A stretch of DNA of 64,000 bases from Janthinobacterium sp. (GTDB taxonomy: Bacteria; Pseudomonadota; Gammaproteobacteria; Burkholderiales; Burkholderiaceae_D), in contig PKWL01000125.1 of assembly GCA_003133225.1 (NCBI GenBank), forward strand, positions 748 to 64,747. The letters run 5' to 3'. The notes beneath the pieces are model-generated. The model searched no databases and had not been told where the DNA came from. It saw only the letters and a list, made by a program, of their open reading frames with translations. Shown here piece by piece: positions 4,671 to 35,047 of the stretch; positions within the stretch are counted from its first letter, which is position 1; every line of letters starts with the position of its first letter. The translations under genes and the position numbers were made by a program.

Positions 4671-6113
4671 ATGAATCGTGTTAAAGAAAAGGCCAATTTG
4701 GCCGAAAGGCTTGCGGAGCATAATCTGCGCGATTTCATCGCACGGATCGAGCGGGAGCATCCGGGAGAAATCCTGCGCATAAAGGATGAAATCCACCCGG
4801 GCTCGTTCGAAGCCACGGCAATCCTGGTGAACCTGGAGAAGTGCGGGCTCTATCCGATGGTGCTGTTCGAGCGTCCCGTGAACCAATTAGGCGAAGTTTC
4901 ACCGTTTCCGCTGCTGACGAATATCTATGCATCGAGAAACCGGTGCGCGCTTGCCCTGGGGTTGCAGGCGCACCAGTATCAAAACGAACTGAGTTTGGAA
5001 TATTCCCGGCGCGAAGCGCGGCGGATTGCTCCCACGAACGTTTCAAAAGAAGATGCGCCCGTAAAGCAAGTGGTGAAGACAGGCGCGCAGGTCGACCTGC
5101 GCGAGTTGCCCATTGTGCGTCACCACCACATGGACCCGGCGCCCTATATCGACATGACACCCGTCATGCGCGATCCGGAAATGGGGCACTACAACGTCGC
5201 GTTCTTGCGGACCATGTACAAAGGACCGCAAAAACTCGGCATACATATGTCTCCCCGCCATAACTGGCAAATCTGCCGCAAATACGAGGAAAAGAATCTC
5301 CCTACGCCGGTTGTGATCGTTGTCAGCCACCATCCGGCTTTCTATCTGGGCGCATTGAACGTTTCGCCATTCGGGGTCGATGACTACGAGCTGATCGGCT
5401 CGATGATGAACGACTCGCTGCGTCTGGTTCCTTCCGAGACGTGGGGTGCGGATTTCATGGTTCCGGCCGACGCCGAGATCGTGATCGAAGGCGAAATACC
5501 GCCCGGCGTGCGGGAGGTCGAAGGTCCATTCGGTGAATTTCCCGGCACCTATGGGCCGCAGCGGTCGCGCTGGATCATTGACGTGAAGGCGGTCACCCAC
5601 CGCAAAGACGCGATCTACCAGGATATCTTCGTCGGCCATCCTGACAACTGGGTGCTGGGAGCCATTCCCAAGGAGGGCACACTGTTCAATCGCATCAAGG
5701 GAGTGGTGCCGACGGTAAAGGCCGTGCATTTGCCGAATTCCGGATGCGGCCGGTTCAACTGCTACATCTCAATCGACAAGAAAGTGGATGGAGAAAGTAA
5801 GCAGGCGGCGTTGATCGCGCTCGGGGAGTGCGACTTCGTCAAGAACGTGTTCGTCGTGGACGCCGACATCGATCCCTTCAACGAGCAGCAAGTCATGTGG
5901 GCATTTGCTACGCGCGTCCAGGCGGACCAGGACGTCGACATCATCAAGAATGTAAAAGGCGCCACGCTGGAACCCTCGCAAATTGACGACATCATGACCA
6001 CAAAAATGATCATCGATGCCACAAGACCCATTCGGCGGCCTTTCGCCTCGCGGATACAAGTACCCCAAGATGTGCGGGACCGTTTACCGGTAGAGCGTTA
6101 TCTAAAAAAATAA
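4671..6113 (+). CDS. UbiD-family prenyl-FMN decarboxylase (copy 2, divergent)
   Basis: A 480-residue UbiD-family enzyme that differs clearly from the other two copies. The metal and cofactor segment is GHYNVAFLRTM, with Asn175 and Arg180 at the family spacing. VEGPFGEFPGTYG carries Glu284 and Glu289. The N-terminus (RDFIARIEREHPGEILRI) is the usual UbiD entry segment, and FVVDADIDPFN marks the C-terminal domain. A His-rich insertion (IVRHHHMDPAPYIDM) replaces the WPLDGGKYIGT segment of copy 1, suggesting a different active-site lining. Its ribosome-binding site is weak. It directly follows the small zinc-ribbon gene, so the two may be partners. It probably handles a different acid from copies 1 and 3. 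Confidence 0.88.
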   Translation: MNRVKEKANLAERLAEHNLRDFIARIEREHPGEILRIKDEIHPGSFEATAILVNLEKCGLYPMVLFERPVNQLGEVSPFPLLTNIYASRNRCALALGLQAHQYQNELSLEYSRREARRIAPTNVSKEDAPVKQVVKTGAQVDLRELPIVRHHHMDPAPYIDMTPVMRDPEMGHYNVAFLRTMYKGPQKLGIHMSPRHNWQICRKYEEKNLPTPVVIVVSHHPAFYLGALNVSPFGVDDYELIGSMMNDSLRLVPSETWGADFMVPADAEIVIEGEIPPGVREVEGPFGEFPGTYGPQRSRWIIDVKAVTHRKDAIYQDIFVGHPDNWVLGAIPKEGTLFNRIKGVVPTVKAVHLPNSGCGRFNCYISIDKKVDGESKQAALIALGECDFVKNVFVVDADIDPFNEQQVMWAFATRVQADQDVDIIKNVKGATLEPSQIDDIMTTKMIIDATRPIRRPFASRIQVPQDVRDRLPVERYLKK

Positions 6114-18923: not shown

Positions 18924-19637
18924 TCAGATTGTGAGAAGCCGGTAGCCGACCGCGGTCTCGGTCAGTAGATGCCGCGGCTGGGCCGGGTCGATCTCCAGCT
19001 TTTGCCGCAAGTGGCCCATATAAATGCGCAGGTAGTGGCTTTGCTCCGCATGCGAGGGGCCCCAGACCTCGCGCAACAGTTGGCGGTGCGTCAGCACCCG
19101 GCCCACGTTGGCAATCAGCACGGTCAGCAAGCGGTACTCGATTGGGGTCAGATGCACCTCGGCGCCGCCGCGGCGCACCAGGCGCGCCTGCCGATCCACT
19201 TCGACCTCGCCAAAGTGAAAGAGCGGATCTGCCTCACCTGATGCGTCTGCTGCGCCCTCACCTGGCGTTGCGCGGGGTCGGCGTAGGTTGGCGCGCACCC
19301 GGGCCAGTAGCTCGCCCACACCAAAGGGCTTGGTGAGGTAGTCGTCAGCGCCGGCATCAAGGGCTGCAATCTTGTCGGCTTCATCTGAACGCGCCGATAG
19401 CACCACGATCGGCACGCCGGACCAGCCGCGCACATCACGGATCAGCTCCAGCCCGTCGCCATCGGGCAGGCCCAGGTCCAGCACCAGCAGATCGGGCTTG
19501 CGGGTGCCGGTTTCCGTCAATCCTTTTTTTATCGTGTCGGCTTCATGGACTTGCCAGCCCTCGGCTTCGAGTGCCGCCCGCACAAAGCGGCGAATCTGGG
19601 GTTCGTCTTCAATGATGACGGCGATGGGGGCGAGCAT
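18924..19637 (-). CDS. kdpE: KdpE response regulator
   Basis: A 237-residue OmpR-type regulator. The receiver domain has the phospho-acceptor Asp54 in LLVLDLGLPDGDG, with acidic residues near the N-terminus (IIEDEPQIRRF) and the Lys in DDYLTKPFG. The C-terminal winged helix spans roughly residues 135-235 (VHLTPIEYRLLTVLI, GHLRQKLE). Phosphorylated by KdpD at low potassium or osmotic stress, it activates kdpFABC. The gene follows kdpD by 26 bp, so they form one unit. Unusually, kdpDE is separated from kdpFABC by about 7.8 kb of other genes. Confidence 0.95.
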   Translation of the reverse strand: MLAPIAVIIEDEPQIRRFVRAALEAEGWQVHEADTIKKGLTETGTRKPDLLVLDLGLPDGDGLELIRDVRGWSGVPIVVLSARSDEADKIAALDAGADDYLTKPFGVGELLARVRANLRRPRATPGEGAADASGEADPLFHFGEVEVDRQARLVRRGGAEVHLTPIEYRLLTVLIANVGRVLTHRQLLREVWGPSHAEQSHYLRIYMGHLRQKLEIDPAQPRHLLTETAVGYRLLTI

Positions 19638-19663: not shown

Positions 19664-22429
19664 TCAGGCATTGTGGATGTCGGGGAGTTCCGGCGGTGGC
19701 ATGCGTGGCAGCGTGAGGATGAATTCTGCACCACCCCCCAAGGCCTGGGCCGCCGTGATGTGTCCCCGGTGCGCTTCCACCACTGCTTTGCAGATCGCCA
19801 GCCCGAGACCGACACCTGGCGTGGCCGACTCGGTCTTGCCGCGTGTGAACTTCTCAAACAAGGTCTGTTCCTGACCTATGCTCGAACGTGGTAGGCCCGG
19901 TCCATGGTCGCGCACGCTGAGCACCAGTGTGGTGGGTGTCACCCGGGCGCTGATCAGGATAGGTTTGGCCTCAGGCGCCCCAGAAACACCATACTTGGTG
20001 GCATTTTCCAGCAGATTCACCAGCACCCGCTCCATCAACGCCGCGTCGAACTTAACCAGAGGCAAGTCGGCAGGCACGTCGGTTTGCACCACCACATTTC
20101 CCAAGGCGTGGCGTGCCGCGCGGATGGCGCTGCCGACCAGTTCCTCGATCGAATGCCAGTCGCTGCGCAGGTTGACCTCGCCGCTTTGCAGACGTGCCAT
20201 GTCCATCAGGTTGGTGACCAGCGCATTGAGTTGCCGCGCCTCCTGGACGATGGCGCGGGCCGAGCTGGCCTGGTCGTCTGCCAGTGGCGGCGTCGAGCGC
20301 TCAAGCGATTCCGCCAGCCCTACCAACGCCGTCAGCGGTGTGCGCACGTCATGCGAGATGGCCGCCAGCAAGGCGCTGCGCAGGCTCTCAGACTCCATTT
20401 GTACCACCGCCGCTTGCGCCACTTCCACATAGTGCACCCGCTCGATAGCAATGGCAATCTGGCGTGCCAGCGTCTCCAGCTGCTTCACCTGTTCAGGGAT
20501 CAGCAGCCAGCGCGGATGCGCAGGCCGCAGCGCCAGCACGCCCCGAATCCGCATCGGCGCGCGCAGCGGAACGTAATGCCAAGCGTGGGCGGGCAAGGTG
20601 GCGGTGGCCAGGCCAGCGCGCTGACCGTTGTGAAAAGCCCAGTCGGCAATACTGGCATCGATGGAGTCGGGCAAGTCGCTACCCAGTGCCAGCTGGTCAT
20701 TGACGTCGGTCAGCAGCACTTTGGCCTGACCGCCAAAAGTGCGCTGCACCGCCGCCTCGCCAAGTTCCACTACTTGGACGGCCTGTAGGGCTGCCGACAG
20801 GTCACGCGTCAACTCGAACAGGGCCTGGGCGCGCCGCTCGCGACTGGCCGAAATGCGGGCCGAAAAGCGCAGGTTCGCAGTGAGCTGGCCAATCATCAGG
20901 CCCACTCCCAGCATCACTGCAAACGTCATCAGGTATTGCACATCAGTGACCGCGAACGAAAAGCGGGGCTGCACAAAGAAAAAGTCGAATGACGCCACAC
21001 CCAGCACTGCGGCCAGTGTGGCTGGGCCGCGCCCCAGCTTTACGGCCACCAGCACCACGTACAGCAGGAACAGCATCACGATGTTGGCCAGGTCGAACAG
21101 GGGTGCCAGCGGCAAAGCCAGCAGTGTGGTCAACAGGCAGGCGAGGCCGGTCCAGGCATAGGCCGGCCAGGCCTCACGCCAGACTGCTGCGTCCTCAATC
21201 TCCCGGTCATCGTGAGGCAAGGCCTGCGACAGCCGACGGCTGCTGTCGGCAACGCCAACCTCGACGATGTCCAGCGCCGGGGCCAGGGTGGCCAGCTGGC
21301 GCGTGACGGTCGGACGCCGGATCCGCCACAGCGCCTGCCAGCGCCGCGCAGTTGGCCGACCCGTCACCAAGGTGGCGCAATTCAAGGTGGCGGCCTGGCG
21401 CACGAGTTCGGCCGCCACGTTGCTGCCGGACAGCACCGCCGTGCTGGCGCCCATTTCTTCAGCCAGCTTGAGCACGGCCAGCGTACGGTCGCGCACAGTT
21501 GCGGGTAGGCGCTGCTGTTCTGGTGTTTCCACATAAACCGCATGCCAGCGCACGTTGAGCTGACCGGCCAGCCGGGCTGCGCTTCGCACGGCATGCTCGG
21601 CACCCTCATGGGGGCCGACACACACGAGGATGGCACCGGAGGTGTTCCATGACGGCGCACTGGCGAGGGCTTGGCCCGCCCCCGATTGCGACTGCTCGAT
21701 CCGGTAACTGCGCACGTCGTCTTCCACATGCTCGGCGGTGCGGCGCAGGGCAATCTCGCGCAACGCGATCAGGTTGCCTTTGCGAAAAAAATTCTGCGCC
21801 GCGCGCTCCGCCTGTTGCGGCAGGTAGACCTTGCCGGCCTTCAGGCGCTCCAGCAACTCGTCGGGCGTGACGTCCACCAGGATGATCTCGTCGGCGCGGT
21901 CCAGCACCGTGTCGGGCACGGTTTCGTGAACGCGAATACCGGTAATGGCGCCTACCGTGCCATTGAGGCTTTCCAAGTGTTGCACATTGAGGGCGCTCCA
22001 GACGTCGATGCCCGCCTCCAGCAACTCCTGCACGTCCTGCCAGCGCTTCGGATGGCGCGAGCCCACCGCATTGCTGTGCGCCAGCTCATCAACCAGCAGC
22101 ACCGCCGGATGCGCGGCCAGGGCGGCATCCAGATCAAATTCAAACAGGGTGCGGCCACGGTAGGGCACCGCGCGCTGAGGCAATTGCGTTAGGCCCGCCA
22201 GCAATTCGGCGGTCTCGCCACGACCATGGGTTTCGATCACGCCAACCAGCACCTCGCGCCCGGCCCGCTGTTCGCGCTGCGCCGCGTTGAGCATGGCGAA
22301 GGTCTTGCCGACGCCGGCGCCGGCACCAAAGTAAATGCGCAGCTTGCCCAGACGTGCGCGCTCGCCCTCGCTACGGATTTGCTCCAGCAGTTGATCGGGG
22401 TCCGGTCGGGCGTCGTGGAGGCTAGCCAA
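19664..22429 (-). CDS. kdpD: KdpD sensor histidine kinase
   Basis: A 921-residue membrane sensor for potassium limitation. The N-terminal KdpD domain has a Walker A motif (GAGAGVGKTFAML) and HGRGETAELL. A universal-stress-protein-like domain follows near residues 250-370, then four closely spaced membrane helices around residues 410-500 and a GAF-like segment. The kinase core has His693 in SHDVRTPLTALVG, the N box NLLENATKYG and the G box DHGPGLP. The start is TTG 22429 with AAAGG 9 bases upstream; no ATG is available. Length is close to the E. coli protein (894). Confidence 0.95.
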   Translation of the reverse strand: MASLHDARPDPDQLLEQIRSEGERARLGKLRIYFGAGAGVGKTFAMLNAAQREQRAGREVLVGVIETHGRGETAELLAGLTQLPQRAVPYRGRTLFEFDLDAALAAHPAVLLVDELAHSNAVGSRHPKRWQDVQELLEAGIDVWSALNVQHLESLNGTVGAITGIRVHETVPDTVLDRADEIILVDVTPDELLERLKAGKVYLPQQAERAAQNFFRKGNLIALREIALRRTAEHVEDDVRSYRIEQSQSGAGQALASAPSWNTSGAILVCVGPHEGAEHAVRSAARLAGQLNVRWHAVYVETPEQQRLPATVRDRTLAVLKLAEEMGASTAVLSGSNVAAELVRQAATLNCATLVTGRPTARRWQALWRIRRPTVTRQLATLAPALDIVEVGVADSSRRLSQALPHDDREIEDAAVWREAWPAYAWTGLACLLTTLLALPLAPLFDLANIVMLFLLYVVLVAVKLGRGPATLAAVLGVASFDFFFVQPRFSFAVTDVQYLMTFAVMLGVGLMIGQLTANLRFSARISASRERRAQALFELTRDLSAALQAVQVVELGEAAVQRTFGGQAKVLLTDVNDQLALGSDLPDSIDASIADWAFHNGQRAGLATATLPAHAWHYVPLRAPMRIRGVLALRPAHPRWLLIPEQVKQLETLARQIAIAIERVHYVEVAQAAVVQMESESLRSALLAAISHDVRTPLTALVGLAESLERSTPPLADDQASSARAIVQEARQLNALVTNLMDMARLQSGEVNLRSDWHSIEELVGSAIRAARHALGNVVVQTDVPADLPLVKFDAALMERVLVNLLENATKYGVSGAPEAKPILISARVTPTTLVLSVRDHGPGLPRSSIGQEQTLFEKFTRGKTESATPGVGLGLAICKAVVEAHRGHITAAQALGGGAEFILTLPRMPPPELPDIHNA

Positions 22430-22489: not shown

Positions 22490-23338
22490 TCAGAAAGTTT
22501 TTCCGATCGACAGCACTGCTGTGGTTTTGCCGAGCTTCTGTGGGTCCAGGCCAGCCGAGTTGCCAGTTTGGTAGAACGTGGCGTCGGCGTTGCTGCCGAC
22601 CACGGCCAGCCCGAGGTTAAAGCCGCCCACTTCCTTGGCTAACGACAGCTTGTAGTCCGCGTAGGAAAGCTCGCCGTAGTTGCGCACCGAGGTATAGCCC
22701 ACATGCAGGCCCAGCGTGAGCTGGTTGCCCATGTCGGCGTTGTAGTTCAGATCAAGGTAGGTCGTGCCTTTCGAGTCGCCGCGTGCTGGCAGGGCGCTCC
22801 AGTAGGCATAGCCCGAGGTGCTGCTGTTGAGGCCGAAATAGTCGGTCACGGCATACGACAGCTTGGCGTTGAACGGCCCACGCGTGAGGCCGACGTAGAG
22901 CTCGGTGTTGTCGTATTTTTCGCCCGTGGGCGAGGCCGGTGCGCTGTTCAGCCGAGCGCCGGGGTATACGTAGTTCAAGACGCCAACATCGACCGTCAAG
23001 TCTTTGACCGGCTCAAAGCGGTAGCCACCATACAAGTCCATCTCCAGGCTGGCGCCGTTGTTGTAGCTGTTGGACGATACGTTGGAGTTCCAGTTGCCAA
23101 GGTAGAAGCCGCTGGCGTGGGTGTAGTCGAAGCCGCCTTGCACCGCTGGTTGGCCCCAGCTTTGCGCGATACCGCGAAAGCGGTAGTCCGAGACCAGGGT
23201 CAGGTTGCCGGTGACGGCCGGGGTCGCCGCTGGCGTGGCGGCTGTGCCCGAAGCATCGGTGGGAGTTTGTGTCTGCGCGTTGGCAGCGCCGAAAACCAGG
23301 CTGAGGGCCACTGGGGCCAAAAGTTGTTTGAAAAGCAT
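22490..23338 (-). CDS. TorF-family putative porin
   Basis: A 282-residue outer-membrane beta-barrel candidate with a signal peptide ending after FGAANA (residue 21). It has alternating strand patterns such as GNLTLVSDYRFRGIAQSWGQ, VQGGFDYTHASGFYLGNWNS and a C-terminal aromatic residue (VLSIGKTF), typical of barrel proteins. The DYRFRGIAQ opening marks the family annotated as TorF/CHP02001, often found beside PII and ammonium-transport genes. Here it is third in a unit with a possible PII-like gene and a small membrane peptide, 21 bp after the latter. It likely lets a small solute cross the outer membrane. Confidence 0.85.
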   Translation of the reverse strand: MLFKQLLAPVALSLVFGAANAQTQTPTDASGTAATPAATPAVTGNLTLVSDYRFRGIAQSWGQPAVQGGFDYTHASGFYLGNWNSNVSSNSYNNGASLEMDLYGGYRFEPVKDLTVDVGVLNYVYPGARLNSAPASPTGEKYDNTELYVGLTRGPFNAKLSYAVTDYFGLNSSTSGYAYWSALPARGDSKGTTYLDLNYNADMGNQLTLGLHVGYTSVRNYGELSYADYKLSLAKEVGGFNLGLAVVGSNADATFYQTGNSAGLDPQKLGKTTAVLSIGKTF

Positions 23339-23359: not shown

Positions 23360-23503
23360 CTATCTCAATGCGCGGCTCTGACGGGCGGCCGCGCGGTCGC
23401 CCTTTTTCTTTGGTTTATCCCAGACCAGGTAGCCCCAAGCCATCAGCATGGGCAGCACGAAGACGCCCAGCGCGCACAAGGCGCGCAGCAAGTCAGAAAA
23501 CAT
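23360..23503 (-). CDS. 47-residue single-pass membrane peptide (paralogue A)
   Basis: The sequence opens MFSDLLRALCALGVFVLPML, continues AWGYLVWDKPKKKGDR and ends with a basic tail. One hydrophobic helix of about 20 residues is followed by positive charges, so it should sit in the inner membrane with the tail inside. It aligns with the 41-residue peptide at 26668-26793 (shared SDL, L-AL, FVP-L-AWG, W and DR positions). Its start overlaps the preceding gene's stop by 11 bases, so translation is probably coupled. It recalls KdpF-like stabilising subunits by size and shape only. Confidence 0.7.
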   Translation of the reverse strand: MFSDLLRALCALGVFVLPMLMAWGYLVWDKPKKKGDRAAARQSRALR

Positions 23504-23873
23504 GGCGCTGCGCCCCGTTGAAATTGCTGGCACGCAAGCTCGCGCAGGCGGCGATAGCTCCGATCTCGCCATTCGGCAGGCAGGCCAGGATCTGGTCGAT
23601 CACCGCCTCACCCTGGCCAGCCGGAAAACGGATTTCCAGTTCAACCTTGTCGATTTTGTGCATAGGCAAGCAGCGCACTATGGCGGTCTCAGGACAGGCC
23701 AACAAAGCCCTGCGAGCCAGCAAGGCGTCCCTGCTCGCCACCACCACCTTGAGCAGCTCGAAATGCGTGCTGAAACCCGGAGCGGTGGCCCGATGCCGGT
23801 CAAGAAACGCCATGGCATGACCGTGACGCGAGGCGCCTGCGGCCCTAAAACCCAAAACAGAAAGAATGTTCAT
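23493..23873 (-). CDS. Possible PII-like small regulatory protein
   Basis: A 126-residue protein I cannot assign firmly. The C-terminal half, KVELEIRFPAGQGEAVIDQI followed by LACLPNGEIGAI, resembles the second beta-alpha unit of PII signalling proteins (KVKIEI...VIEAI...GKIGDG). No T-loop tyrosine motif is visible, so it would be an atypical PII relative. ATG 23873 has TTGGAG about 9 bases upstream; the longer frame to 23933 runs through the promoter. It leads a unit with a membrane peptide and a TorF-type porin, and lies behind a promoter like that of kdp. Confidence 0.5.
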   Translation of the reverse strand: MNILSVLGFRAAGASRHGHAMAFLDRHRATAPGFSTHFELLKVVVASRDALLARRALLACPETAIVRCLPMHKIDKVELEIRFPAGQGEAVIDQILACLPNGEIGAIAACASLRASNFNGAQRHVF

Positions 23874-23914: not shown

Positions 23915-23980
23915 AGCATAGAAATTTCGGCATAAAAACGGGGATGAAAGCTGGCCCCTGCGTGCAAAAAAGGCGTAAAG
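23915..23980 (-). promoter_or_regulatory. Kdp-type two-box promoter of the PII-like/porin unit
   Basis: On the minus strand, CTTTACGCCTTTTTTGCAC (23980-23962) is followed after 18 bp by CCCCGTTTTTATGCC (23943-23929). The -10-like TATGCT (23920-23915) begins 23 bases after the first base of the second box. The kdp promoter (34982-35047) and the one at 26888-26953 have the same boxes at the same distances. No TTGACA-like -35 exists, as expected for an activator-dependent promoter. KdpE is the obvious candidate activator. Confidence 0.65.
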
Positions 23981-23993
23981 AAAAGCATGGGAC

Positions 23994-25538
23994 TCAATCC
24001 GATCCGGTCTTGAGGTAGCCGCTTGCTGGCAGGCTGGTCAGGCCAGCTTGCACGGTCGCTGGCTGGGCCTCATGCGGCGCTTCGAATTGGCGCAGCAGAT
24101 GCCCGAGCAGCTTGCGATAAAGCTCATCGCCGAGCACGGCATCTTCCATGCCGGCATCGATGTTGGGGTTGTCGTTGATCTCGATCACATAGACGCCCGA
24201 GGCGTTTTCTTTCAGGTCCACGCCGTAAAGCCCGTCACCCACCAGCTTGGCGCAACGCACGGCGGCATCCAATACGGCCTTGGGCGTGTCCTTGATCGCA
24301 ACGGCTTCGGTGCGGCCTTCCTCATGCTTGCCGTCGGCGCCGTGCTTGAGGATCTGCCAGTGGTCCCGGGTCATGAAATAGCGGGCGACGAAAAGCGGCT
24401 CGCCCGCCAGAATGCCAACGCGCCAGTCGAAGTCGGTGTACATGAACTCCTGCACCAGAATGATTTCCGATTCCTTGAACATCGCCTGGGCGATGTCTTG
24501 AAACTGTTTCCAGCTCTCCGCCTTCTTGACGTTGCGGCTGAACGAGCCGTCCGGCACCTTCAGGACAACGGGATAGGCCAGCACATCTTCCAACTTCAAC
24601 AGCGTGCGCCGGCTCACCAGCCGTGTGCGCGGCGAGGCGATTCCGCTGCCCTGCAATAGCTCGGACAGATAGGCCTTGTTCGTGCAGCGCAGGATGGAGG
24701 TCGGGTCATCGAGTACGGGCATGCCTTCGGCGGCGGCTTTTTTTGCGAACTTGAAGGTATGGTGATCCACCGCGGTCGTTTCCCGGATGAGCAGCGCATC
24801 GAATTGGGTGAGCCGGGAGAAATCCTTCTTCTCGATCAGTTCCACGTCGATATTCATTGAGCGCCCGACCCGCACGAAGTTTTGCAAGGTCTCGGCGCTT
24901 GAGGGGGGCAGCGGGTCGCGCGGGTCATGCAGGATGGCCAAGTCCATTCTGGGCGCACTCTCGACCAGGGCGGGACGCCAGGTTCGGCGGGTGAAGCGTT
25001 CCAGGGCATCGAGGAACACGCTGTCGCGCGCCGGGTCCACGTCGCGCGGATCGAGCGGGAGCAGTTGGGCGATCTTCCAGCCGTTCGAGCTCTCCAGGCG
25101 CTCAAGGCCAACCTCAAGCAGGGGGCAGCGGAACAACTCGAAGCTGCGGCGGGCCAGATCGGACAACTCCGGGTCTTCGATCTGCCCGAAGAAAACATGG
25201 AAGCTCAGCGAATTGACGGACCTGGGCACATCCTCCAGGCCGCCAATGAGACGATTCAGGCCTGACAGCCGGGGGGAGTCAGCCGTCTTTTGCTGCAGGT
25301 CCAGTATGGTTTCAACGCTGGGGGTCACGCGGTCGCCCCGCGCTTCGGCCAGCAGCGAGCAGTAGTAGCCCATGCTGAGGTAGTCATAACTGCGGCACAG
25401 GTTGATCACCTTGCGCTGCCGGGTGCGCCCGTCGGCGTGTTCCGAGACGAACTCCTCTGCCGTCATGACGCGGGAGCCCGGATCGGGCCAGCGAAAATCC
25501 GAGCGCTTTTCAACAACAATGATATGAACGGAGCTCAC
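23994..25538 (-). CDS. RimK-type ATP-grasp ligase with RLAN N-terminal domain
   Basis: A 514-residue protein. The N-terminal 200 residues ([20 protein letters not shown]) match the RimK-like ATP-grasp N-terminal domain. The C-terminal half is an ATP-grasp ligase: [19 protein letters not shown] (nucleotide loop), [20 protein letters not shown] and [20 protein letters not shown], followed by PNID with the Mg-binding Glu/Asn pair. Such enzymes join amino acids to proteins, peptides or small acids. Its start overlaps the GNAT/C39 gene stop by 4 bases. The target is unknown; the tiny membrane peptides nearby are possible candidates but this is speculative. Confidence 0.85.
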
Positions 25539-26713
25539 TGTGTACCTTTGGAAAGAATGACGGCCGCGGTTTGTCGTCGTCGGCCATAGCGCGTGATGCG
25601 CCGGAACTCGTCAATGCTGACGGAGATGCCTGGATCCCCTTCGGCAGGCGGGGCAATCGGGTCCAGAATGCGGAAAACCGCACCGTCGAATCCGGTGACG
25701 ACGACCCAGTGCGGGCCTTTTTCGCCATGCAGGCGCCACAGGCTGATCAGAACAATGGGCACGCCGCCGCGCTGCAAATGGTCGGCAATCCGCTTCGGGG
25801 AGACCGGCGACTCGACGATCACTGTGCTGGTGGCGGCGATCTCGGCGCGGAAATCCGCTTCCACCAGCTCGATGACGGCCTTTTTGCGCGGGTCGCGTAC
25901 GCTGCTCGTGAACAGGCTGGTGCCGGACGGGGCGTAGACCGTGGCGTCAAAACCTCGCCTGGCCGCAGCGAGTGACAGGCCAAAGGGGCCGCAGCCGCCA
26001 TGCCCGGCTGCCATGAACACGGTGGTGGCCTCGCGCCAGACCCGTATTTCCGCCGCACGGTCGATGGTGATGGTCCGATCGAGCGCGGCCATGGCCATCA
26101 ACAGCGCGCAAGGCCCGCAAGTAAAGTCGAGTGTCTGGCCGTAATAAGGCGCGCGCAGGGCAACCGAGCGCGACGCCTTGCCCACATTCCACAGCGATTT
26201 CTGGAACCGCAGGGCATCCGTTCCATCATCATAGTAAGTCGGCTTGCGGTCCAGCGGCGCGAATCCATGGCGGCGAAAAAGCGACTGCGCGGCTTTGTTG
26301 TCAACCCGTGTCTCCAGCCTCAGGACAGAGGCGCCGGCTGCCCGCGCGTTCTCTATGGCGGTTTCGAGCAGCATCCGTGCAATGCCTTGGCCGCGCGCAA
26401 CCGGATCAACCGCGATGGAATAGAGACGGGCTACCGATGTGTGCGCGCTATGCAGCAGTACGCTTGCCCCTACAATGCCGCCGGACGTGGCCGCGACGGT
26501 GACAGTGGCCGACGCTCTGGCTATCAGTCCGCGCCAGCTGCGCCTGGAGATGCGGTCCCCGGCGAAGGCGCTTTGCTCCAGCTGGCTCAGGGCGCCGATG
26601 TCCTTGGCGCACGCACGCCTCAGCCGGACGGCCGCTTTGGGCCCAACTGGAGTGGCTTCAGAGATGCTCACCGCCGTCGCCGATCCGGTTGGTTCTTTGA
26701 GCGCTCCTGCCAT
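25535..26713 (-). CDS. GNAT acetyltransferase / C39-like peptidase fusion
   Basis: A 392-residue two-domain protein. Residues about 30-170 are a GNAT fold with the acetyl-CoA loop [20 protein letters not shown] and [19 protein letters not shown]. Residues about 185-390 are a C39/papain-like peptidase with Cys199 in [13 protein letters not shown], His335 in [10 protein letters not shown] and Asp351 in RILDP, a complete triad. No membrane segments are visible. ATG 26713 was chosen; GTG 26728 in frame is also possible. It overlaps the upstream membrane-peptide gene by 46 bases and the ATP-grasp gene by 4. GNAT, papain-like and ATP-grasp pairings are known from amidoligase operons. Confidence 0.85.
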
Positions 26714-26793
26714 GAGACGATGCCCCACGCCAGCAGCAGCGGAACGAACAATGCCGCCAGTGCCAGCACGAACGTTCCCAGGTCAGAGCCCAT
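26668..26793 (-). CDS. 41-residue single-pass membrane peptide (paralogue B)
   Basis: The sequence opens MGSDLGTFVLALAALFVPLL and continues [14 protein letters not shown] before an Arg-rich end. It has one hydrophobic helix and a basic cytoplasmic tail. It matches the 47-residue peptide at 23360-23503 at SDL, AL, FVP-L-AWG, W and the DR near the end. It is the first gene after a kdp-type promoter and its last 46 bases overlap the GNAT/C39 gene in another frame. The ribosome-binding site is weak. The conserved pairing with the same style of promoter argues that it is real. Confidence 0.65.
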   Translation of the reverse strand: MGSDLGTFVLALAALFVPLLLAWGIVSWQERSKNQPDRRRR

Positions 26794-26887
26794 GATGACA
26801 CGCCGCGCCGATGGCACCCCTAGCGAGGTAAGACAGCAGGTTCATCGATCTAGCCGATGCGCTTTCAAATGATTTCACGATGGGCTT

Positions 26888-26953
26888 AGCTTAGCGAAGC
26901 CGACGTAAAAACAGGGACAAATAGGGCCGAGGTCGCATAAAGAAAGCGTAAAT
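26888..26953 (-). promoter_or_regulatory. Kdp-type two-box promoter of the ATP-grasp/C39 unit
   Basis: Minus strand: ATTTACGCTTTCTTTATGC (26953-26935), an 18-bp gap, CCCTGTTTTTACGTC (26916-26902), then TAAGCT (26893-26888) as -10, 23 bases after the first base of the second box. Distances are identical to those at the kdp and PII-like promoters. Transcription should start near 26881, giving a leader of roughly 90 bases before the membrane-peptide gene. Confidence 0.65.
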
Positions 26954-26973
26954 ACTTGGTCAGCGCCGTGCTG

Positions 26974-28320
26974 TCATGCCCGGACTTCCCCAGCTTGATC
27001 CTCTTCCTTGGGAACAAAAACCATGCCGGTATTGGCATTGCAATCCATCAAGCCGGCATAGCGGCCCCACGCGATCATGGTTTGAAAGATCTTCTCCGGG
27101 TTGTCGTAAGGCAAGGCGCTGGCGATGTCCTTGATCACACGCTGCGATTCCACCTCTTGGTATTCCTTGAGCAGGGCAATGATGATGTGAAAGAGGCGCA
27201 GCTTGAACACCTGCTCGGCAAAGATCGCACGCCGGCCCAGGCGGTCAGCCGCAACGAAGCGTCGGCCCAGTTCGGTAAAGCGGACCGCGTCTTTGGGCGT
27301 GTCGATGAACTCCAGAATCTCCGCAGCCTTCACCAGGGCGATCGTCTCGCCAAACTCCTTGCCGATCTCATCCGAAATGTCGTAGATGTTCGACATCTCG
27401 GGTGAGTCGTGAAGAATGCTCAGCAGGCCGAGGATCTGGCCCACTGACACCAGGGGAATCGACTCCATGCGCCGACGGGCGCGCGAGACCGGATGGCCGG
27501 GCAGCGGCGTTTCCGGCGGAAGGTCGGGCAAGGTCGTGGTGGTGATCGATTCATGGATCACGCGGACCAGCCGCTGGAACTCCGGGTCCCGGCTGTCACG
27601 CGGATAAGGCAAGGAGTTCTCCAGCACCAGGCCAAGGCGGCCCGGGTTGGGAAAAAGCACAACGATGCGGGTGGCCATTTCCACTGCCTCTTCAATGTTG
27701 TGTGTCACCATGAAAACCGAACGCGGTCCGACGCCGTGGCCCTGCCAGAGACTGATGAGTTCCTGGCGCAGGTTCTCCGCCGTGAGAACGTCCAGTGCGC
27801 TGAATGCCTCGTCAAGGCACAAGAGCTTGGGTTGCGACACCAGGGCGCGGGCGATGCCGACGCGCTGGCGCATACCGCCCGAAAGCTCTCGAGGATAAGC
27901 GGCGTGATAGTTGCCCAGGCCTATCAGTTCGATCGCCTGTTCGACCGCCGCATCACGCTCGGCACGGCTGACTCGACGTGACATGAGTCCTACCGACACG
28001 TTCTGCTCCACCGTGAGCCACGGGTAAAGCGCAAAGGTCTGGAACACCACGGAAGCGTCCCGGTTGATGCCGTGCAGCTCTTGCCCGTTGCACAGCACGC
28101 GCCCGGAGGTCGGCTCGATAAGCCCAGTCAGGCAGCGCAGGATGGTTGACTTGCCGGAGCCGGACTGGCCCAGCAGCGCCAGCAGCTCTCCCTCGTGGAC
28201 CGCCAGGTCAATGTTCTCCAGAACCTTCAGTTCATGGCCCCCGTCAATAGTGAAAGACTTGGTAACGGCACACAGTTGCGCAATCGCTGGAGCGGCTTGG
28301 TTGGTTGGCGTGGTGTTCAT
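26974..28320 (-). CDS. ABC transporter ATPase with AAA-associated C-terminal domain
   Basis: A 448-residue protein. Residues about 10-270 are a NitT/TauT-type ATPase: Walker A GQSGSGKST, signature ELSGGMRQRVGIARA, Walker B LLCLDEAFSALD, and His in MVTHNIEEA. Residues about 300-430 (VSVGQILGLLSILHDSPEMS, DISDEIGKEFGETIALVKAA) match the AAA-associated helical domain found on some of these ATPases, probably regulatory. The start ATG 28320 lies 5 bp after the permease stop. Upstream in-frame open sequence is only a shadow of the permease gene. Substrate unknown; no binding protein is adjacent. Confidence 0.88.
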   Translation of the reverse strand: MNTTPTNQAAPAIAQLCAVTKSFTIDGGHELKVLENIDLAVHEGELLALLGQSGSGKSTILRCLTGLIEPTSGRVLCNGQELHGINRDASVVFQTFALYPWLTVEQNVSVGLMSRRVSRAERDAAVEQAIELIGLGNYHAAYPRELSGGMRQRVGIARALVSQPKLLCLDEAFSALDVLTAENLRQELISLWQGHGVGPRSVFMVTHNIEEAVEMATRIVVLFPNPGRLGLVLENSLPYPRDSRDPEFQRLVRVIHESITTTTLPDLPPETPLPGHPVSRARRRMESIPLVSVGQILGLLSILHDSPEMSNIYDISDEIGKEFGETIALVKAAEILEFIDTPKDAVRFTELGRRFVAADRLGRRAIFAEQVFKLRLFHIIIALLKEYQEVESQRVIKDIASALPYDNPEKIFQTMIAWGRYAGLMDCNANTGMVFVPKEEDQAGEVRA

Positions 28321-28325
28321 CGGGG

Positions 28326-30065
28326 TCAATCCAGGCGGAAGCGGCGTTCCGCAAAGGTGTAGAGGCGCCGCCAGATCAGTCTGTTCATCAGCAGCACGAA
28401 AAGCGACATCACGCCGATGCTGGCGATGATGAGTGGGGTGTCGCCAGACTTGGTGACCGTGGCAATGAACGCGCCCAGCCCGTCGGCCTTCAGCGTCGTG
28501 TCGCCCCAGGTTGCAAGTTCGGCTACGATGCTGGCGTTCCAGGCGCCGCCCGCTGCGGTGCAAGCTCCGGTAACCCAGAACGGAAAGATGGCAGGCAGGA
28601 TCAGCGTGCGCCACAAATCCCAGTTGCGCAGGCCGTAAATGCGGGCCGCTTCCTTCAAGTCGTTCGGGATCGCCATGGCACCTGCAATCACGTTGAACAG
28701 GATGTACCACTGCGTTCCCATCGCGATCAGCAGGACACTGCCCCAGTTCATCGGCGTGTGCGTCGCCACAAAGAAACCGACGACGATGGGAAAGGTCATG
28801 TTGACCGGGAACGATGCGCCGATTTGAGCCAGCGGCTGCGCAATGCGGGCCACACGGGGCTGGAAACCGATCCACACGCCGACCGGTGTCCAGATCAGCG
28901 TCGCGAAAATGGTCATCGCGATGACCCGCAACAAGGTCAGCAAACCCAGCCACACGATATGGCCCAGGATGGCGGGCGTCACGGTGCCGTGCAACGCGGC
29001 AACTGCGGCGATGATGGCGGTGAGAATCTCGAAGCCAAGCCACGCTGCCAGTGCCACTGCGATGGTCCGCAAGGGCCAGTTCCGACCCACGGCTGGTTGG
29101 CCGGTGCCGGCTTTGGAGCGGGGAACCAGGTCCTGCAGCCGGTCTTTCAGTGCTTGCCAGACCCGCTTGCTGAACCAGCGGAAGATGTAGGCACCACGCA
29201 GCAAGTTGTAGACCCACGAGGTCGCCGGCGTCGCGGATTCGGTCATCTCGACCTTGAACTTGTCGGCCCAGGCCAGTAGTGGCCGCCACACGAGCTGATC
29301 GCTGATGAGAATGATCGCCAGCATCGCCAACACTGCCCAAAAGGCGGCCTGGTGGTCGCCGCGCCCGATAGCCTGTGCCATGTAGGCGCCCAGACCCGGC
29401 AGCTTGATGTCCTTGTTCATCACGCTGATGGCTTCGCTTTGCGCAACAAAAAACCAGCCGCCCCCAAACGACATCATCGAATTCCAGAGAAGGCTGTGCG
29501 CCGACGCCGGCAGTTCGACCGTCCTGAAACGTTGCCAGCGGTTCAGTCCATAGGTTGAGGCGGCCTCCTGCATGTCGGTCGGTATCGTGACCATCGAATG
29601 GTAGAAACCAAAGGCCATGTTCCAGACCTGGCCGGTAAATATGGCGAAGATGGCGGCACATTCCACACCCAACAGGCTGCCCGGGAATAGCGCCATGAAA
29701 CCGGCGACCGTGGCCGATAGGAAGCCAAGGACAGGCACCGACTGCAACACGTCCAGCGCGGGAAGAATGATGCTGCGGGCGAGGCGATTTTTTGCAGCAA
29801 GGTAGCCTAGCGAGACCGCGAAGAACAGCGAAAAACTGAAGGCGATCCACATCCGCAACAGCGTGCGGCCGGCGTAGTACGGGATCTGACTGGGCGAAGC
29901 GTCCAATCGAGGCGTGCTGGCCGGATCGAAATGTGCCAGCATTCCTCTTCCAAAATGCATTGCACTCCACAAGAGGCCCATCACCGCCAGCAACACCAGC
30001 ACGTCGATCCAGCCAAAGCCAGAATGCGCTTCGTTGATGGCAAGCCTGGGTGCGGTGCTTTTCAT
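28326..30065 (-). CDS. ABC transporter permease, two fused BPD domains
   Basis: A 579-residue membrane protein with two homologous permease halves. Each has an EAA loop: EAASTYGLNRWQRFRTVELP in the first half and EAARIYGLRNWDLWRTLILP in the second. About twelve hydrophobic segments are visible. A linker near residues 285-330 (RWFSKRVWQALKDRLQDL) is polar. I chose ATG 30065 because the 32 residues upstream are not hydrophobic or conserved-looking. With the ATPase downstream it makes a full transporter core, but no solute-binding protein gene is linked. Fused permeases of this kind occur with AAA-associated-domain ATPases in proteobacteria. Confidence 0.85.
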   Translation of the reverse strand: MKSTAPRLAINEAHSGFGWIDVLVLLAVMGLLWSAMHFGRGMLAHFDPASTPRLDASPSQIPYYAGRTLLRMWIAFSFSLFFAVSLGYLAAKNRLARSIILPALDVLQSVPVLGFLSATVAGFMALFPGSLLGVECAAIFAIFTGQVWNMAFGFYHSMVTIPTDMQEAASTYGLNRWQRFRTVELPASAHSLLWNSMMSFGGGWFFVAQSEAISVMNKDIKLPGLGAYMAQAIGRGDHQAAFWAVLAMLAIILISDQLVWRPLLAWADKFKVEMTESATPATSWVYNLLRGAYIFRWFSKRVWQALKDRLQDLVPRSKAGTGQPAVGRNWPLRTIAVALAAWLGFEILTAIIAAVAALHGTVTPAILGHIVWLGLLTLLRVIAMTIFATLIWTPVGVWIGFQPRVARIAQPLAQIGASFPVNMTFPIVVGFFVATHTPMNWGSVLLIAMGTQWYILFNVIAGAMAIPNDLKEAARIYGLRNWDLWRTLILPAIFPFWVTGACTAAGGAWNASIVAELATWGDTTLKADGLGAFIATVTKSGDTPLIIASIGVMSLFVLLMNRLIWRRLYTFAERRFRLD

Positions 30066-30187
30066 ACCGACAGCTATCTCATCGACTCCTGTTCGACACA
30101 GATCGCCATTGCCTCGGCAGACTACCGGGTCTGCTCGGTGCCAAGTTCGACAAGACGACACGCATAGGGGAGACTGGCTCTGGCAGA

Positions 30188-30218
30188 CACCCGGGCGATG
30201 CCTGCCATCGCCCGGGTG
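30188..30218. terminator. 13-bp hairpin downstream of kdpC
   Basis: CACCCGGGCGATG (30188-30200) and CATCGCCCGGGTG (30206-30218) pair perfectly around a 5-base loop, 9 bp after the kdpC stop. No T-run follows on the minus strand, so it may act as a Rho-linked terminator or 3' end protector for the kdpFABC transcript. Confidence 0.55.
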
Positions 30219-30227
30219 ATTGAAGTT

Positions 30228-30800
30228 CTATCGCAGCGCTTCCAGGGCCAAGTTCAACTGCAACACGTTAACCTGCGACTCACCCAGAAACGGGATGAGC
30301 GGCTTTTCGGTCTGCTGCTCAACGAGGCCCTGAACCCTGTCGGCCGTCAGGCCGCGGGCTTTGGCCACCCTGGCCACCTGGTAGCGTGCCGCAGCCGGGC
30401 TGATGTGCGGGTCCAGCCCACTGGAGGAGGCCGTCACCAGATCCACCGGCACCGGCGCCGTGTTGCCCGGATCGGCGGCGCGCAGGGCTTCCACACGACC
30501 CTTGACGGCATCGGTCAAGGCCGGGTTCAGCGGCCCCAGGTTGGAGCCACTGGAGTTCGCGGCGTTGTAACCCATCGGGCTGGTGGCTGACGGGCGACCC
30601 CAGAAGTGTTTCGGGTCGCTGAAGTTCTGGCCGATCAGGCTGGAGCCGACCGGCTTGCCGCCACGCAGGATCAAGCTGCCGCCGGCTTGCGCCGGAAACA
30701 GGGACTGCGCCACGCCGGTCACCACCAGGGGGTAGGCGATGCCAGTCAGCAGCGTGAGGACGAAGAACAGCACGAGTGCTGGCCGAAGAATGTTTTTCAT
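30228..30800 (-). CDS. kdpC: KdpC, potassium ATPase subunit C
   Basis: A 190-residue subunit of the KdpFABC potassium pump, anchored by one N-terminal helix ([20 protein letters not shown]). Conserved segments include [35 protein letters not shown] and [20 protein letters not shown]. The length matches the family (about 190). It follows kdpB by 39 bp on the same strand and is closed by a strong hairpin. In most genomes kdpD follows here; in this one it does not. Confidence 0.96.
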
Positions 30801-30839
30801 GATGATTTCCTTGAAGCTTGTGGCTTGAGACCGTCTGGC

Positions 30840-32927
<2,088 letters not shown>

Positions 32928-32952
32928 ATCATGTACTCACTTTTTCGGCGGT

Positions 32953-34752
32953 TCAATGGCCAGACCACAGCATCAGATGCTCAACTATTGGGCCCAGCGC
33001 CAGCCCCGGCACGTAGTTCAGCAGGCCCACCAGCAGCACGGTGCCAATCAGCAGCGTCACAAACAGCGGACCATGGGTTGGCATGGTGCCCGCCGTCACG
33101 GGCAGGCGTTTCTTGGCGGCCAGGGCGCCGGCAATCGCCAGCACCGGCACGATCATGGCGAAGCGACCGAACCACATGGTCAGGCCCAGCATCCAGTTGT
33201 AGAAGGGTGTGTTGGCGGACAGGCCGGCAAAGGCGCTGCCGTTGTTGTTGCCGGCCGATACGAAGGCGTAGAAGATTTCGGAAAACCCGTGCGCGCCAGG
33301 GTTGGCAATGCCGGCCGTGCCGGCGCTTGCCAGTACCGCAATGGCGGTACCGACCAGCACCACGGTCGGCGTCACCAGAATGGCAATCGAAGTCAGCTTC
33401 ATTTCATGCGCCTCGATCTTCTTGCCCAGGTACTCCGGCGTGCGGCCTATCATCAAGCCGGCAATGAACACCGCCAGGATGGCAAAGATCAGCATGCCGT
33501 AGAGGCCGCTGCCGGTGCCGCCGAACACCACTTCGCCGAGCTGCATCATCACCAGGGGCACCATGCCGCCCAGCGGTGTGAAGGAGTCGTGCATGCTATC
33601 GACAGCACCACACGAGGCCGAGGTGGTGACCACGGTAAACAGGCTGGTGGCGTTGATGCCGAAGCGGGTTTCCTTGCCTTCCATGTTGCCGCCGGACTGC
33701 AAGCTGCTGGCGGTCTGGTCCACGCCCAGGGCAGCGATCAGCGGATTGCCGGCCTGCTCGGCGGGCGTGATAACCACCACGGCGACGACAAACATCACGG
33801 TCATCGCGGCCAGCACGGCCCAGCCCTGACGCCGGTCGCCGACCTCGTGGCCGAAGGTAAAGCACAGGGCAGCGGGGATCAGGAAAATCAACAGCATCTG
33901 CAGCAAATTGGTCAGTGCCGTCGGGTTTTCATAAGGGTGAGCCGAATTGGCGTTGAAGAAACCACCGCCATTGGTGCCCAGCATCTTGATGACTTCCTGC
34001 GACGCGACCGGGCCCATAGCCAGGCTTTGCGTGGGGGTCTTCAAGTCTTCCATGACCGGGTTGCCCTTGGCATCTTTCAAGGGCTGTCCGTCGGCACCAT
34101 TCTTGGGCTGCTGGTAGGCGTTGACTTCCAGCGTGGTGACGTCCTTGTAGGCGTCAAAGTTCTGGATCACGCCCTGGCCGACCATAAACACGGCGATGAC
34201 CAGCGACACTGGGACCAACACCCAGGCCGTGATGCGGGTGACGTCAACCCAGAAGTTGCCAATCACGCCGGTTGAGCGTGCAGCAAAACCGCGAATGAGC
34301 GCGAATGCCACGGCGATGCCGGTGGCAGCGGAGAAGAAGTTCTGCACCGTGAGCCCCAGCATCTGCGTCAGGTAGCCCATGGTGGACTCACCGCCATAGC
34401 CCTGCCAGTTGGTGTTGGTGACAAAGCTGATGGCGGTGTTGAAAGACGAGTCAGGCGATACATTGGCCATGGCAGCGGGATTGAGCGGTAGCCAGACCTG
34501 CAAACGCTGCAGCGCATAGACCGCGAACACGCCCAGCGCGTTGAAGGCCAGCACGGCCAGCGCGTAGTGCGACCAGTTCATGGACTTGTCGGCAGAAGTG
34601 CCTGCCAGACGGTAGAGGGGCGCTTCCACCCGCAGCATCCAGAGCGGCAGCTTGCCGGAACTCAGGCGTGCCAGCCAGATGCCCAGGGGCCACGATGTCA
34701 CCAGCAATAGACCGAGGAAAAGGGCCAACAGGCCCCATGACGTGGTACTCAT
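32953..34752 (-). CDS. kdpA: KdpA, potassium channel-like subunit
   Basis: A 599-residue membrane protein of the Trk/Ktr-like superfamily that forms the selectivity filter and pore of the Kdp pump. Filter-like segments include [39 protein letters not shown] and [19 protein letters not shown] used ATG 34752, which overlaps the kdpF stop by one base (TGATG); a longer frame to 34812 would read through kdpF. The protein is about 40 residues longer than in E. coli (557). Confidence 0.96.
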
Positions 34753-34850
34753 CAGAACTCCTCGGCGCGGATCAGCGCATAAATCAGATAGGCGAACAAC
34801 AGGGCGGCGCAAACGCCGCCCAGGCCGTACAGAACTGTGAGGCTGATCAT
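34752..34850 (-). CDS. kdpF: KdpF, small stabilising subunit
   Basis: A 32-residue single-helix peptide beginning [20 protein letters not shown] and ending [12 protein letters not shown]. The LxYALIRAExF end is the hallmark of KdpF, which stabilises the KdpABC complex in the membrane. Its stop overlaps kdpA by one base, and its ATG overlaps the stop of the preceding small gene by four (ATGA). It is too short for ordinary gene finders. Confidence 0.9.
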
Positions 34851-34951
34851 GGCCGGCCTCCTGCTGGTTTTTCGAGCTTTTTGAAACCCCAGACCATCAG
34901 GACCATTAGGCCCCACAGCCCGGCGGCAGCGGCGATAAATACGATATCCAT
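34847..34951 (-). CDS. 34-residue membrane peptide at the head of the kdp operon
   Basis: It opens [20 protein letters not shown] and continues [14 protein letters not shown]: one hydrophobic helix with a basic tail. GAGGAG lies 6-11 bases upstream of ATG 34951, and the stop overlaps the kdpF start by four bases, so it is almost surely translated. Small peptides of this type often precede kdpF in proteobacteria but have no assigned role. The WG at the helix end followed by Lys is shared with the two membrane peptides at 23360 and 26668. Confidence 0.75.
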
Positions 34952-34981
34952 GAGCAACTCCTCAATCAAATGAACGACTGG

Positions 34982-35047
34982 AGTATGGTCACCGACGCGT
35001 AAAAACGGGGTTGATATTTATCAAGAGAGTGTAAAAAAACCGTAAAC
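34982..35047 (-). promoter_or_regulatory. kdp promoter with KdpE-like boxes
   Basis: Minus strand: GTTTACGGTTTTTTTACAC (35047-35029), 18 bp, CCCCGTTTTTACGCG (35010-34996), then CATACT (34987-34982) as -10. The first box resembles the T-rich KdpE site of the E. coli kdp promoter, with TTTAC half-sites 11 bp apart; a third half-site in the second box lies 32 bp further on. Transcription should start near 34975, about 24 bases before the first small gene. Confidence 0.7.

Follow-up and report, generated by a model that had tools for sequence, protein, structure and literature searches.

Three predicted KdpE-type promoters around a split kdp locus point to a wider KdpE gene set in Burkholderiales

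The kdp locus considered here lies in a 64,000-nt stretch of DNA (the window) of contig C59 from a Janthinobacterium sp. assembly of 5.74 Mb (G000). Its kdp genes occur in two parts, kdpABC (30.2-34.8 kb) and, past a group of accessory genes, kdpDE (18.9-22.4 kb), which agrees with the split locus described in an earlier reading made from the letters alone (the sequence-only reading). Three predicted KdpE-type promoters are found at the places given by that reading, all on the minus strand like the genes described below. E1 (34982..35047) precedes the kdpFABC unit, E2 (26888..26953) a unit of a small transmembrane (TM) protein, a GNAT-C39 protein and a RimK-like protein, and E3 (23915..23980) a unit of a PII-like protein, a small TM protein and a TorF porin. 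The genes 3' of E1 are, in order, a small membrane open reading frame (ORF) of 34 amino acids (34847..34951), a 32-amino-acid ORF (34752..34850) that is kdpF-like by its position and its likeness to the KdpF sequence, kdpA (32953..34752; PF03814), kdpB (30840..32927; E1-E2_ATPase and Hydrolase domains) and kdpC (30228..30800; PF02669). An ABC permease and ATPase pair (26974..30161; BPD_transp_1, and ABC_tran with AAA_assoc_C) lies between kdpC and E2.

The unit 3' of E2 starts with a 41-amino-acid membrane ORF of the PLLLAWG..W type (26668..26793), followed by a GNAT protein with a C39-like peptidase (DUF3335; 25535..26671, GTG start inferred) and an RLAN/RimK-like ATP-grasp protein (23994..25538). 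The latter falls below the cut-offs of the RimK family models (70 bits against 143 for TIGR00768, and 25 against 331 for PRK10446). E3 is followed by the small PII-like gene (23493..23873; start possibly at 23813), a 47-amino-acid membrane ORF of the PMLMAWG..W type (23360..23503) and the porin gene (22490..23338; Gcw_chp, PF09694), whose product scores 158.5 bits with TIGR02001 (cut-off 47.15) and thus belongs to the TorF family. The small PII-like protein has no Pfam or NCBIfam match at E<=0.001, P-II family models included, and many ferredoxin-like folds tie in a fold comparison. It is probably homologous to small proteins of other genomes, with a similar predicted topology and an hhalign probability of 30% (E 5e-4 over 46 columns). 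Next come kdpD (19664..22429), with the PF02702 domain at contig positions G000:C59:22472-23095 and 1024 bits against the NCBIfam KdpD equivalog, under its cut-off of 1123, and kdpE (18924..19637). KdpE is an orthologue-level match to the NCBIfam equivalog (353 bits, cut-off 325). Its recognition helix SHYLRIYMGHLRQKLE is the same as that of E. coli KdpE, and R193, R200 and T215, residues reported to be required for binding in E. coli (PMC3264566), are all conserved.

Each element can be read as four half-sites, S1 to S4, at offsets 0, +11, +32 and +43, with a -10 hexamer at +59. In E1 these are S1 at 35046-35042, S2 at 35035-35031, a decayed S3 at 35014-35010, S4 at 35003-34999 and the hexamer at 34987-34982. 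The corresponding positions are 26952-26948 (S1), 26941-26937 (S2), 26909-26905 (S4) and 26893-26888 (-10) in E2, and 23979-23975, 23968-23964, 23936-23932 and 23920-23915 in E3. The sequence-only reading had described a two-box design, and its details are reproduced. When the first box is set to positions 1-19 of the 66-mer and the second to 38-52, 12 of 19 and 11 of 15 positions are invariant, the gap is 18 bp, all spacings are equal to the base, and the hexamers are CATACT, TAAGCT and TATGCT. Moving the second box by one base leaves 10/15 invariant positions, and 30 of the 66 positions are invariant without gaps. The likeness of the first box to the E. coli KdpE site, TTTATA-N5-TTTACA, also holds. 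Two TTTA-type half-sites in direct repeat with a 5-bp spacer, 11 bp apart, occur in E1 (TTTACG/TTTACA), E2 (TTTACG/TTTATG) and E3 (TTTACG/TTTGCA, with one mismatch to TTTA in S2).

These elements were compared with the kdp promoters of the family. KdpA is found in 155 of 245 family genomes, of which 78 were chosen by hand for spread over genera. Together with the second kdp locus of the window's bin, they gave 79 kdp loci, each with 2 kb upstream of KdpA. The promoter was picked by a TTTAY-N6-TTTAY pair (S1/S2) 230-420 bp upstream, and among several candidates the choice fell on the best S3/S4, which introduces a small bias. The pair is present in 66 of the 79 regions; locus L107 is among the 13 misses, and its kdp site was found by the scan with the R1 model described below. 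Of the 66 promoters, 56 carry TTTA at +32 and 54 carry it at +43, whereas at 18 control offsets it is found in only 0-3 of 66. The hexamer at +59 is TAnnnT, with T, A and the final T invariant in all 66, and S1 starts 59 bp above it, just as in E1-E3 and in E. coli. No clear -35 element is seen, since the best TTGACA match at 16-18 bp is at most 3/6 in 58 of the 66, about the random level, and only 0-2/6 in E1-E3. A canonical -35 at the proximal box was also considered and rejected; 4/6 matches occur in 8/66 promoters, against a random expectation of about 8%.

Because S3, S4 and the invariant -10 hexamer are conserved and a -35 is lacking, the kdp promoter of these bacteria is, as far as its sequence tells, an activator-type promoter with four half-sites. 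The two-box design is thus real as a set of elements, but it is not private to this locus, being the usual kdp promoter of the family. The second box keeps the half-site spacing and is better read as an S3-S4 pair with a decayed S3. The same form is seen in Acidovorax kdp promoters, where loci with the whole element readable have TTTAC at S1, S2 and S4 and TGTGC at S3. The E. coli K-12 kdp promoter has TTTAT, TTTAC, TTTGC and TTTGC at identical offsets, followed by TACCCT. The two TTTGC half-sites (+32 and +43), which lie below the operator already known for KdpE, hint at an unrecognised proximal site in E. coli too.

A matrix built from the 66 kdp promoters, with the window sequence excluded, gave E3 (34.8 bits), E1 (28.4 bits) and E2 (27.3 bits) as its top three places on both strands of the window. 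The next scores were -10.9 and -21.5, from overlapping registers of E1 and E3, and -22.3 at an unrelated place; 300 dinucleotide-shuffled versions of the window scored no higher than -1.7. Furthermore, the two-box pattern with up to three mismatches occurs at exactly three places in the whole assembly, and its reversed control at none. R1, a sequence-only model of 65 kdp and porin-side promoters that holds no window sequence and includes the bin's second kdp promoter, found seven places in the assembly at E<=10. Three of them belong to the second kdp locus, which is on contig C65 (57.7 bits, by construction, 32.1 and 23.8 bits), followed by E3 (22.0 bits), E1 (21.2 bits), E2 (21.1 bits) and one place at E 0.15. 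In the C65 locus (L208; G000:C65:21000-40900), KdpE-type sites precede kdp as well as two accessory units, one PII-like/MinD-like/TorF-porin and one divergent PII-like/DHDPS/MinD-like. The locus also holds a truncated kdpA-like ORF at 4971-6110.

The gene set recurs in other genomes. Among the 134 R1 matches listed, 53 family sites, mainly outside the kdp promoter, were examined, and 43 of them precede members of a recurring gene set. The targets are the PII-like small ORF (21 sites), a MinD-like gene (19), a DHDPS-like gene (15), the TorF porin (8), KdpA (5), a BBP2 porin (3), the C39/RimK-like genes (3), KdpD (2, one with KdpE behind it) and Kup (1). Since some of the query proteins came from the same loci, this count shows recurrence and is no blind test. 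The sequence-only reading would have been refuted by a motif found widely at unrelated genes; the matches fall mainly at kdp loci and this small gene set, with 10 of the 53 sites lacking an assigned target. The Kup case is a KdpE-type site directly upstream of a kup potassium transporter gene (L238:614-2667; G087:C226). In three genomes of one genus (G196, G287 and G240; g26), a site with S1, S2, S4 and the -10 at full spacing is found some 110 bp upstream of a glutamine-amidotransferase-like ORF, named by eye.

The closest relatives of the window's RimK-like gene occur in Rhodoferax and Acidovorax, and 14 such genomes, two Rhodoferax metagenome-assembled genomes (MAGs) and 12 Acidovorax genomes, none in the training set, were scanned separately. 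R1 at E<=0.1 gave 23 matches in 12 of them, and 21 of the 23 precede kdpA (12), the TorF porin (6), C39 (2) or the PII-like gene (1). The other two are weak, have no assigned target and come from one Rhodoferax genome. In three Acidovorax genomes the porin site and kdp are on different contigs. Of the 13 Acidovorax C39 units, aligned in fixed register on the -10, 11 have TTTA at S3 and S4 and TAGACT as hexamer, with near-matches (TTGA or TTCA; one S1 weaker) at S1 and S2; of the other two loci, one is without the layout and one is cut off. Because KdpE-type sites precede the accessory genes in other places too, also on contigs without kdp, the arrangement in the window looks like part of a conserved regulon and not like a peculiarity of one locus.

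Several loci vary the theme. G107, G052 and G111 each have a separate site for the C39/RimK-like pair. In G052 (L251; G052:C2:157420-158557) the RimK-like gene lies in three separate match pieces and looks broken, and its C39 neighbour retains a KdpE-type site. That the accessory genes are always present was rejected, the RimK-like gene being found in 41 of 245 family genomes (in G020 only weakly). In a Rhodoferax MAG locus (L040) the C39 unit comes directly after kdpC, with no separate site found there and no counterpart of the ABC permease/ATPase pair at the matching place. E2 may matter in the window because this transporter pair now stands between kdpC and C39. An 8.5-kb contig of a Rhodoferax MAG (L039) has kdpC immediately after a porin gene (1-1400) and is without any kdpA or kdpB match. 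Small membrane ORFs of 39-47 amino acids recur near C39 and porin genes, namely at 26668-26793 and 23360-23503 of the window, at 8770-8889 of L040 and at about 8762-8884 of L042. Those of the window and L040 share an A-W-G..W stretch and that of L042 is only loosely alike; they are possibly KdpF-like.

The motif also tracks the Kdp system across genomes. With strict filters, R1 matches at E<=0.01 were found in at least 68 of 116 family genomes, and KdpD domain matches in 68 of 116. Motif and KdpD or KdpA were both present in 60 genomes, the motif alone in 8, Kdp alone in 12 and neither in 36 (p 3e-12), where KdpA presence was taken from the separate 245-genome search on the assumption that the genomes are the same. 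This association is partly circular because R1 was trained on the kdp promoters of 33 of these genomes. Without them it is weaker and still stands, with 27, 8, 12 and 36 genomes in the same order (n=83; p 2.7e-6). Of the eight genomes with the motif only, G025 has KdpD/KdpE downstream of the site by tblastn, G041, G047 and G070 have weak matches, and G058 and G078 partial ones. In 114 class-wide genomes, R1 at E<=1e-4 gave three matches outside the window's own genome, all linked to kdp (two before kdpA and one just after kdpDE).

The specificity of the motif, its recurrence, and its tracking of KdpD/KdpA also in the 83 non-training genomes make control of all three units by KdpE the best reading, as the sequence-only reading had proposed; we give it a probability of about 85%. 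From the comparisons, we infer KdpE binding, transcription starts and a potassium response at E1-E3. KdpD would sense potassium shortage and phosphorylate KdpE, and phosphorylated KdpE would bind direct repeats of the TTTAC type that face the same side of the DNA helix. Counted from the start, the distal pair S1-S2 would sit at about -71 and -60 and the proximal site at about -28, next to its weak partner. KdpE would occupy S1-S2 and probably also S4, with a weak S3. The bound regulator would then recruit RNA polymerase to the -10 hexamer without a -35 element. In this way the kdpFABC pump, the GNAT-C39/RimK-like pair and the PII-like/porin unit would be switched on together when potassium is scarce, and the porin would pass potassium through the outer membrane.

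Several observations weigh against KdpE control of the three units. E3 has TTTGC at S2, and all three elements have a decayed S3; because of the latter, the R1 scores of the three elements are modest, at 21-22 bits (E about 1e-3 per genome). R1 itself detects the C39 site in only 4 of the 13 Acidovorax loci. Among the 53 family sites examined, ten lack an assigned target, two of them strong (58 bits at G108:C206:7783-7851, with no target among the proteins tested, and 45.6 bits at G100:C2:1506434). Of the 72 genomes with KdpD or KdpA, 12 gave no motif match, and in 8 of the 68 genomes with the motif neither protein was detected. Finally, kdp is reported as the essential target of KdpE in E. 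coli (PMC7657598).

A wider picture may be drawn, although as a whole it is doubtful. Burkholderiales would have a conserved potassium-starvation regulon with tandem KdpE operators, in which the small, unclassified PII-like protein, the commonest accessory target, is the potassium counterpart of GlnK and docks on Kdp, the porin or the kinase to gate potassium entry. The porin would open the outer membrane, and the RimK-like/C39 pair would adjust glutamate-type polymers as counter-ions.

A second KdpE site at the proximal box is somewhat probable. KdpE might instead bind the distal box S1-S2 only, the proximal box being a promoter-core or spacing feature. This is possible, if on the unlikely side, and it suits the published E. 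coli footprint, which is given as -72 to -50 only (PMC3264566), and the decay of S3 in E1-E3 and in Acidovorax kdp promoters. However, TTTA at S3 and S4 in 56 and 54 of the 66 kdp promoters, at exact 32-bp offsets from S1 and S2 and nearly absent from the control offsets, speaks for a repeated operator, and the proximal pair is the better one at the Acidovorax C39 units.

Operators made of 11-bp direct repeats are common to members of the OmpR/PhoB family. Another response regulator of this family may read the repeats, alone or with KdpE, and the eight motif genomes without detected KdpD and KdpA and the full-spacing site at the glutamine-amidotransferase-like gene in g26 would fit such a case. 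Inputs are also known to mix, as PhoR can phosphorylate KdpE in E. coli (PMC5458449). We regard a different regulator as improbable, however, since the matrix is defined by kdp promoters, the model fires on E. coli kdp, the matches fall mainly at kdp loci and the recurring gene set, and the recognition helix of KdpE is identical to that of E. coli.

That E1-E3 are recent copies of one promoter, whose likeness would then be uninformative on regulation, is very unlikely. The three lie within 11 kb and share CCCYG beside S4, but their flanks outside the elements are unlike (3-16/40 identical), and the promoter of the L040 counterpart gene resembles E3 more (51/72) than E1 (42) and E2 (41) do, so they are no fresh copies. 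Porin sites off the kdp contig in three Acidovorax genomes also argue against local duplication, which is largely refuted by the comparison of flanks and of the L040 promoter. Chance similarity of T-rich promoter DNA, for which nothing speaks except the low complexity of the half-sites, is refuted by the shuffle and reversed-pattern controls (at most -1.7 against 27-35 bits, and none in the assembly).

Contig C59 may be foreign to its bin, by mis-binning or transfer. Among 31 genomes of the assigned genus, the RimK-like gene is found only in that of the window and is absent from the other 30 searched, and it is 82-84% identical in Rhodoferax MAGs. Full-length counterparts of the window's LivM protein share 59-62% identity with it in the assigned genus, and 65-68% in two further families of the same order. 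Counts made in the own genome may therefore describe two organisms. The claim of specificity is independent of that genome because the Rhodoferax and Acidovorax scans carry it without it.

KdpE, kdpFABC, the S1-S2 operator, and KdpE targets beyond kdp in Staphylococcus aureus and enterohaemorrhagic E. coli (EHEC) are already known. In E. coli, kdpFABC is activated by KdpE through the TTTATA-N5-TTTACA operator in 11-bp register at about -72 to -50 (PMC3264566). The E. coli promoter has the four offsets and the -10 position of E1-E3; its published operator is one dimer site and its proximal half-sites are TTTGC, whereas in the window three units share the promoter. For E. coli K-12 KdpE, three further genes have been identified by ChIP-exo (chromatin immunoprecipitation with exonuclease digestion) and expression analysis, with 31 peaks seen (PMC7657598). 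In S. aureus and EHEC, KdpE acts at promoters beyond kdp (PMC3610689). These targets are virulence genes of other lineages, and neither the porin/PII-like/C39-RimK-like set nor the four-half-site promoter was found in the portions of that source consulted. In Mycobacterium smegmatis, a 22-bp KdpE site lies above kdpFABC in the kdpF promoter (PMC5401905). This is a SigF-type promoter with its own -35 and -10, unlike E1-E3, and the text available for it gave no accessory targets.

Outside the Kdp systems, two comparisons are useful. The P. aeruginosa rlo peptidases are linked to hypo-osmotic stress (PMC12239564), which for the window pair is an analogy only. Both the rim/rlo operons and the window pair place an ATP-grasp protein alongside a peptidase, but the rlo peptidase is a retropepsin, whereas that of the window is C39-like, fused to GNAT and linked to kdp, next to a RimK match far below the family cut-off. 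Class II promoters of the Pho-box type carry tandem 11-bp direct repeats in place of the -35, above a good -10. Their half-site is TGTCA, whereas the half-site in the window is TTTAC and is associated with KdpDE and kdp. The literature searched, in the portions available, held no report of tandem KdpE sites, of a four-half-site KdpE layout, or of porin, RimK or PII-like genes in a KdpE regulon. In E. coli K-12, KdpE is seen as the regulator of essentially a single operon, and the broader roles described for it lie mainly with virulence genes of pathogens. If the reading proposed here is true, a compact recurring KdpE-type set of porins, PII-like proteins, the ATP-grasp/peptidase pair, DHDPS- and MinD-like proteins and Kup would show what else these bacteria need at potassium exhaustion, and the four-half-site promoter code would offer a testable means of finding such genes in related genomes.

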